From NCBI RefSeq assembly GCF_963666195.1, contig NZ_OY762653.1, positions 248,001-312,000 on the forward strand: 64,000 nucleotides of DNA. The letters are read 5' to 3'. This stretch comes from Trichococcus shcherbakoviae. Its GTDB lineage: Bacteria > Bacillota > Bacilli > Lactobacillales > Aerococcaceae. The notes under the pieces are model-generated. The model was given only the letters and a program-made list of their open reading frames with translations. It ran no database searches and had not been told where the DNA came from. Shown in pieces: positions 34,138-35,560 of this stretch. The stretch's first letter is position 1, and each line of letters begins with the position of its first letter. The position numbers and the translations under genes are program-made.

Positions 34138-34365
34138 CTGCCGCACAGCTTTCTTGCGATGCTTGCTTCCACAAACGTACTGGCACCCGGAAATCCTACA
34201 GAGATGGCAAAACGATTCATCGAAAGCGTTAATATCACACCGGCACCACTCCGCATGGTGCTTGGTTCGCAAGCGCTGGCCAGCACCATTGCTACGCTCG
34301 AGAAGCGCTTAGCCGATTTCCGGACGCAAACTGAATTGGCCGCCTCGACGGACTATAAGGAATAA
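34138..34365 (+). pseudogene. Short-chain dehydrogenase, C-terminal remnant
   Basis: The last 55 or so residues of a classical SDR oxidoreductase are recognisable (APGNPTEMAKRFIESV, TPAPLRMVLGSQA, ending ASTDYKE). The Rossmann fold and the catalytic Ser-Tyr-Lys are absent. The ATG at 34159 has no ribosome binding site, and a terminator lies just upstream. I read it as the leftover of a deleted gene. The downstream 34366-34493 holds nothing I can identify. Confidence 0.65.
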
Positions 34366-34493: not shown

Positions 34494-35474
34494 TTAGTTG
34501 TGCCCCATTATGTGATGAGGGATGTATGGTTCTTCCAGAGACAGAATGTCCTCCGCAGAAAGCTTGAAGTCGAGAGCCGAAATAGCGCTGGTCAGATGGC
34601 TTTCCTTGGTGGCTCCGATGATCGGCGCAACGACTTGATCCTTCTGCAGCAGCCAAGCCAAAGCAACCTGAACCCTCTCGACGCCATATTTTTCGGCAAT
34701 CGCTGCAACCCGTTCCACGATGACGCGGTCCTGCGCTTCGGTCGTATCATACTTATGCTTCGCCACTTGGTCCGTTTCGAAGCGTTTCGTAGTGGCCGAC
34801 CAATCACGGGTGAGTCTCCCTGAAGCCAACGGGCTGTATGGCGTTACAGCAATCTTTTGATCCGTGCACAACGGCAGCATTTCCCGCTCTTCCTCCCGGT
34901 ACAAGAGATTCAGGTGATTCTGCATCGAAACAAACTTTGTCAGGCCGTTTTTTTCGGCAACAGATTGCGCTTTGGCGAATTGCCACGCGAACATGGCGGA
35001 TGCGCCGATATAGCGGGCTTTGCCGGATTTCACTACATCATGCAGGGCTTCCATCGTTTCCTCGATTGGTGTGTTGTAGTCCCAACGGTGGATGATGTAA
35101 AGGTCCACATAGTCCATGCCCAACCTTTCCAGACTGTGATCGATTTCAGTCAGGATTGCTTTGCGGGAAAGGCCCCCTCCGTTCGGTGCCTGGCGCATCT
35201 GCTGATGTACTTTTGTCGCCACCACGATCTCATCCCGGTTGGCGTAATCGTTCAAGGCTTTCCCGAGTATGCTTTCACTGGCTCCGTATGAGTAGATGTT
35301 TGCCGTGTCAAAGAAATTGATCCCCAAATCCAACGCACTTTTTATGACTTTTCTGCTCTCTTCTTCTTCCAGCACCCAATTATGGAAGCCGCTATTCGGA
35401 TTGCCGAATCCCATGGCTCCCAAACAAATCCGTGAAACATCCATTCCTGTATTGCCGAATTTCACATAATCCAT
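34494..35474 (-). CDS. Aldo/keto reductase
   Basis: NADPH-dependent aldo/keto reductase of the AKR11/YhdN-like group, 326 residues. Catalytic tetrad positions are visible: Asp and Tyr in FDTANIYSYGASE, Lys in VVATKVH, His in YIIHRW. The cofactor-binding part includes TPYSPLASGRL. ATG at 35474 lies behind GGAGGG. Its promoter has MerR-type architecture, suggesting induction by electrophiles or another small-molecule signal; substrate unknown. A dehydrogenase fragment lies directly downstream. Confidence 0.9.
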   Translation of the reverse strand: MDYVKFGNTGMDVSRICLGAMGFGNPNSGFHNWVLEEEESRKVIKSALDLGINFFDTANIYSYGASESILGKALNDYANRDEIVVATKVHQQMRQAPNGGGLSRKAILTEIDHSLERLGMDYVDLYIIHRWDYNTPIEETMEALHDVVKSGKARYIGASAMFAWQFAKAQSVAEKNGLTKFVSMQNHLNLLYREEEREMLPLCTDQKIAVTPYSPLASGRLTRDWSATTKRFETDQVAKHKYDTTEAQDRVIVERVAAIAEKYGVERVQVALAWLLQKDQVVAPIIGATKESHLTSAISALDFKLSAEDILSLEEPYIPHHIMGHN

Positions 35475-35529
35475 CAATAATTCCCTCCATCTTCAATTTG
35501 ATGACATAGAAATTTACTATGTTAGTGAT

Positions 35530-35560
35530 AATATACTCCTTGAAGTGAACTCCAAGTCAA
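35530..35560 (-). promoter_or_regulatory. MerR-type promoter/operator of the aldo/keto reductase
   Basis: Minus strand TTGACT (35560-35555) and TATATT (35535-35530) are 19 bp apart, too long for unaided RNA polymerase. The spacer holds the dyad CTTGGAGT-TC-ACTTCAAG (35556 to 35539), with one mismatch. This is the hallmark of promoters that MerR-family activators twist into shape. No merR-like gene is in the window. Confidence 0.75.

Follow-up and report, generated by a model that had tools for sequence, protein, structure and literature searches.

The element at positions 35530-35560 of the window (the whole 64,000-nucleotide stretch of Trichococcus shcherbakoviae DNA that was analysed, i.e., G000:C1:248001-312000 of a single 2.93-Mb contig) is, as judged from its letters and those of its relatives, a genuine MerR-type promoter, a known type of switch, and part of a trans-acting regulon. 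We consider it likely (with a probability of roughly 0.8) that this element serves as operator-promoter for a trans-acting MerR-family activator, most likely the protein P0001, whose regulon would consist of small NAD(P)-dependent reductases and enzymes of a detoxification type. This reading rests on the promoter anatomy, its conservation, the set of promoters carrying the same dyad, and the co-occurrence and linkage of that set with the regulator gene; from these we infer binding, activation by distortion, and the signal. A dimer of the regulator would occupy the dyad between the -35 and -10 boxes, which stand 2 bp too far apart for the RNA polymerase of the main sigma factor. Once the signal arrives, the regulator would distort the spacer, allowing the reductase to be transcribed. 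P0001 is a cysteine-free NmlR/AdhR relative with this promoter type before its own gene as well, and the signal, which it would detect without recourse to the NmlR cysteine, may be a carbonyl, a quinone, or a linked metabolite. The features concerned are as follows, in window coordinates.

35555..35560, minus strand: -35 box TTGACT, the final two bases of which double as the first two of the dyad
35536..35554, minus strand (read 35554-35536): 19-bp spacer TGGAGTTCACTTCAAGGAG, read directly from the sequence
35539..35556, minus strand: MerR-type operator dyad CTTGGAGT-TC-ACTTCAAG, i.e., CTTGGAGTTCACTTCAAG, its centre 7 bp past the -35 box
35530..35535, minus strand: -10 box TATATT, read directly from the sequence
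34494..35477, minus strand: aldo/keto reductase (AKR) gene downstream of the promoter, 327 aa, open reading frame called from TTG
34142..34365, plus strand: 3' remnant of a short-chain dehydrogenase (SDR) gene, up to its stop codon, recognized by comparison with intact copies

Seven of the eight pairs in the dyad CTTGGAGTTCACTTCAAG are complementary and the remaining one is G-T. MerR-type promoters have 19-20 bp between their boxes, a spacer also described in PMC9909328 and PMC1526738, and a dyad centred 7-8 bp after the -35 box, the rule stated in section 14 of PMC5045206, according to which the 21-bp CueR and CadR-PbrR sites share the same dyad register. The reductase promoter has 19 bp between its boxes and a dyad centre 7.0 bp past the -35 box. 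The dyad is therefore not centred in the spacer, as the sequence-only reading had described it, but lies 2.5 bp away from the spacer centre. A scan that asked for a TTG-type -35 box (5 of 6 positions), TANNNT after 19 bp, and a dyad in this register with 7 or more of its 8 pairs gave a single match in the window and none in 60 simulated windows of the same dinucleotide content. A hairpin in the leader, with a z value of -1.51, was set aside. Downstream, 61 bp separate the end of the dyad from the called start of the reductase, although translation more probably begins one codon further on, at an ATG (35474-35472). The protein matches PF00248 (Aldo_ket_red) as a whole-protein domain, over residues 16-316, at 258.8 bits against a cut-off of 24.

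The same dyad recurs across the isolate's own genome (G000), at 9 places with up to 2 mismatches (reversed control, 0) and at 12 places with up to 3 (reversed control, 5). In all 9 of the closer matches, TANNNT follows at a distance of exactly 19 bp from the -35 box, which reads TTGACT in seven cases, TTGTCT in one, and TTCCCT in one; an open frame lies downstream of 8 of the 9. The targets are named by Pfam for the members scanned, or by likeness where so marked.

C1:283539: aldo/keto reductase
C1:446539: aldo/keto reductase, named by likeness
C1:1388316: aldo/keto reductase, named by likeness
C1:461737: DUF4440 protein
C1:460549: NAD(P)H-binding/NmrA-like protein
C1:1388242: carboxymuconolactone-decarboxylase (CMD) protein, then a MerR gene
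C1:1943922: MerR gene alone
C1:2223119: SDR
C1:2298838 (L019): faces fragments only

One of the 3-mismatch sites, C1:1242503, has complete boxes and leads to a CMD protein and a cupin. The SDR behind the C1:2223119 dyad (L016 1575-2222) meets an in-frame stop after 216 codons, and its orthologue in G004 is 287 aa long; it is either a broken member of the regulon in this isolate or a sequencing error. The gene behind this SDR in the same genome is presumably OYE-like. A site resembling C1:2298838 precedes a small protein in both G002 and G008, that of G002 being cyclophilin-like (PF18050).

Among the 12 genomes of the genus, 9 contribute 72 sites at up to 2 mismatches, with 4 sites of G001 and 10 of G003 standing outside this count; G007 has no dyad at that threshold. 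Sixty-two sites, those with TTGA, TTGT, TTGC, or TTAA as the four bases preceding the dyad, were scored; 61 of them have TANNNT at spacer 19, compared to at most 10 of 62 at every other spacer from 14 to 26. Nine of the 10 unscored sites (eight with TTCC, one with TTTA) have TATACT at 19 bp, and the tenth (L204) is simply a hairpin. Genes downstream of the genus sites fall into clusters of AKR (11), SDR (9), P0001-type MerR (8), and CMD-MerR (7), followed by a second SDR (6), NmrA-like proteins (6 and 3), and another type of AKR (5 and 3), besides smaller groups; at 3 genus sites, no open frame was found. In the wider order, the strict whole-promoter pattern is present in 76 of 295 genomes, with a reversed control of 0 in every row. 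This genus-wide spacing and order-wide occurrence bear out the proposal, first made from the window alone, that the promoter is of MerR type.

These counts also bear on whether the palindrome could have arisen by chance, or could be bound by a non-MerR repressor over an ordinary promoter. With boxes 16-18 bp apart, a simple scan does find other promoter-like sites nearby, including one inside the dyad on the opposite strand; however, the fixed 19-bp spacing in the genus, the lack of any control match in 295 genomes, and the close linkage to MerR genes (see below) make this explanation scarcely credible. The chance palindrome in particular was rejected on the single occurrence in the window versus none in the 60 simulated windows, together with the reversed control.

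Conservation at the reductase itself follows relatedness. In a search of 41 genomes, the isolate's own included, orthologues at 95-100% were found in 7 genomes of the genus, and the site is kept at all 7. It stands immediately before the reductase in three (G000, G002, and G011); in the other four (G003-G006), the same promoter, in the same place beside an RNase H gene, leads first to another AKR gene and then to the reductase. The L029 orthologue (G006:C2:81831-82643) matches residues 57-327 only, its N-terminal part being missing or broken. Within the genus, paralogues at 71-73% (12 fetched) have no dyad, and those at 61-63% (4 fetched) have one. For the best 80 of 587 named relatives, dyad and boxes lie within 250 bp at spacer 19 in 17 loci and at spacers 15-18 and 20-23 in none; palindromes with shuffled half-sites gave 0.18 on average and 10 at most. 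A site sits further upstream of the reductase at L075, L076, L080, and L147. At 57 of these 80 relatives, neither the site nor a MerR gene is nearby, so that conservation covers the near orthologues but does not extend to the family at large. Had the dyad been absent from orthologous reductases, the sequence-only reading would have fallen by its own terms; the nearest orthologues do keep it.

The locus has also changed in gene content. An intact SDR gene with its own dyad promoter is present in 5 of the 7 reductase-bearing genomes (G003-G006 and G011), corresponding to the remnant at 34142..34365. Relative to G005, the window is without ~0.9 kb, which is the first reductase gene, and without ~3.1 kb, comprising the 5' part of the SDR gene, two divergent dyads, and an NmrA-like gene. 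The difference in the first reductase gene could reflect either its loss from G000, G002, and G011 or its gain by G003-G006; at this locus, G008 carries neither of the two reductases.

As the sequence-only reading had stated, the regulator is not encoded in the window: all 10 MerR domains detected in the genome by two Pfam models lie elsewhere. Two of the corresponding genes stand behind the dyad.

G000:C1:1943992-1944384: P0001, a 131-aa MerR protein encoded 1.66 Mb from the reductase promoter, with the dyad before its own gene
G000:C1:1387067-1387420: P0002, a 118-aa MerR protein in a dyad-driven CMD-MerR operon

Both searches proposed in that reading, for the CTTGGAGT dyad elsewhere in the genome and for merR genes preceded by it, were therefore positive. 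Other MerR genes of this genome have different surroundings: that at C1:410333 has its own, different dyad (ATGAAGTCCACTTCAT), and a MerR-type promoter at C1:993181-993211 (L001; TTGACC-19-TAAGAT, 10 of 10 dyad pairs) precedes the gene for a 255-aa MerR protein at C1:992950. The MerR gene at C1:1240117-1240452 is interrupted in frame by a TAG and a TAA stop.

Linkage of a MerR gene to the same operator, as is characteristic of MerR promoters, extends from P0001 and P0002 in this genome to the genus and the order. In the genus, each of the 10 P0001 genes found is preceded, at 52 bp, by TTGACT-dyad-19 bp-TANNNT. P0001-like genes (E up to 1e-42) occur in 45 of the 295 genomes of the order, and for 36 of the 45 a strict site lies within 1.5 kb. 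The strict promoter is present in 39 of these 45 genomes versus 37 of the 250 others (Fisher p 3e-21, uncorrected for ancestry), the promoter and P0001 searches being taken to cover the same 295 genomes since handles and number agree. The 37 genomes with a strict promoter and no P0001-like gene imply that other MerR clades use the same design. Of the 41 hits outside the genus, 26 regulator loci were fetched, G037 not being among them; a reductase lies within 1.5 kb of the P0001-like gene at only 3 of the 26, which counts against P0001. Eight of these loci were viewed by eye, and the dyad is near the MerR gene in all eight; an SDR-like gene intervenes at two of them, and at one a cupin-like gene follows.

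Phylogeny and co-occurrence favour P0001. In Enterococcus, the MerR genes that adjoin the closest reductase orthologues (at least 76% identity) group, as does that in G037, within the P0001 clade, whose support is 96/86, and 88/82 after removal of the cysteine column and seven rows. P0001 is present at 87% or above in all 7 genomes carrying the reductase orthologue. Metal-type MerR regulators were set aside as controllers: against the CueR, ZntR, CadR-PbrR, and MerR models, P0001 scores at most 67.4 bits, where the cut-offs are at least 143 bits. On these comparisons, the best candidate for the regulator of the reductase promoter is most likely P0001, acting in trans.

As the P0002 operon is also preceded by the dyad (TTGACT-19-TAAACT with CTTGGAGTCCACTTCAGG), this second dyad-driven MerR protein may share control. 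Governance mainly by P0002, or by P0001 and P0002 together, is nonetheless unlikely. The divergently oriented reductase paralogue at the P0002 operon (61% identical) does have a dyad too, and G009, which has no P0001 orthologue, retains 11 dyads alongside a P0002 relative at 72%. However, G002 and G001 are without a P0002 orthologue (their best matches, at 47% and 45%, are P0001 genes) and keep their dyads; G002 moreover combines P0001 with the orthologue of the studied reductase and the dyad before it. That the MerR genes adjoining the closest reductase orthologues belong with P0001 likewise counts against P0002.

Control by a cysteine-bearing NmlR/AdhR-type paralogue, encoded at C1:2537493 or C1:2535175, would restore true electrophile sensing through its cysteine, and both proteins have Cys at the position of NmlR Cys54. 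At Paenibacillus loci L108 and L148, cysteine-type MerR genes adjoin dyad-bearing reductases. Such genes also stand beside more distant reductases (68-71% identity) at L139 and L146, two Enterococcus loci at 70% identity, and in G026 and G029, which counts against P0001. We nevertheless regard this as very unlikely for the promoter studied: the C1:2537493 gene has a distinct dyad of its own (CTTAACCTTAACTTTAAG, TTGACT-19-TAAGCT), and neither gene is near any of the 12 CTTGGAGT dyad places in the genome. An 8-pair scan found no dyad before C1:2535175, an absence that weighs little since the same scan also missed the 7-pair P0001 and P0002 sites.

With P0001 as the preferred regulator, the question of the signal shifts. 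NmlR proteins have an absolutely conserved cysteine (Cys54 in Haemophilus influenzae, Cys52 in AdhR) that is needed for the formaldehyde response, according to section 14 of PMC4776306. The H. influenzae structure chains have Cys at this position; P0001 has Gln, and zero cysteines in its 131 aa. In P0002 the residue is Glu, and two cysteines lie elsewhere in the protein. A P0002-type MerR protein of G009 (L051 2059-2457) has Cys at this position, its relatives in G000, G008, and G010 having Glu or Ala. The electrophile or aldehyde signal suggested from the window alone is thus not supported: it fits the targets, which suit carbonyl chemistry, but could not work through the known thiol in P0001. 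As a tentative proposal, to which we would give slightly less than even odds, NmlR-like MerR activators devoid of cysteine, a clade spanning Trichococcus, Enterococcus, Listeria, and others, would run a regulon of carbonyl and redox enzymes through the dedicated CTTGGAGT operator. Its members would sense without a conserved thiol or a sensor domain, perhaps through a small metabolite bound noncovalently at the dimer interface, and the same cysteine would perhaps have been lost a second time, separately, in the CMD-linked P0002 clade.

What began as one promoter becomes a regulon that can be tested, for which both a candidate regulator gene and a clear operator can be named. The results also suggest that some NmlR-like MerR proteins, forming one branch, serve promoters of carbonyl enzymes although they do not have the cysteine regarded as essential for sensing, and what these short MerR proteins sense becomes directly testable. 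While the promoter type is known, the regulon and the cysteine-free regulator clade are apparently undescribed. In the open literature searched, (i) no match joined CMD and AKR in a MerR-family regulon, (ii) no related description, judged by title, was found for the half-site with MerR or for MerR in Trichococcus, and (iii) the promoter string was absent from the publications matched on MerR-type promoters. The closest solved relative of P0001 is a Listeria protein, which we take to be lmo2728, YyaN presumably being a further name used for proteins of its type; the open literature searched under these two names yielded no function for it. In the part of a lactic acid bacteria regulon study that was consulted (PMC3616900), NmlR is named and no such cysteine-free regulator is.

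Among known systems, the promoters of CueR, CadR-PbrR, and MerR share with the reductase promoter the 19-bp spacer and the palindrome 7 bp from the -35 box, with activation by DNA distortion assumed; they differ in that the operator here is CTTGGAGT-N2-ACTCCAAG and the target a reductase instead of metal transport. The Listeria protein, named LMOf2365_2715 (PDB 3GP4) in PMC5045206, matches P0001 at E 3e-54 and has Gln at the same position. With NmlR/AdhR of H. influenzae, Neisseria, and Bacillus subtilis, P0001 shares a short MerR-family build without a large sensor domain and carbonyl-related targets, AdhR targets including the carboxymuconolactone decarboxylase yraC (PMC4776306, section 24), and NCBIfam NmlR is its best-matching model. 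At 161.1 bits, however, P0001 stays below the NmlR equivalog cut-off of 175 and has Gln for the conserved cysteine with none elsewhere; its likely targets are AKR, SDR, and NmrA-like enzymes, as opposed to adhC/estD or adhA/yraA.
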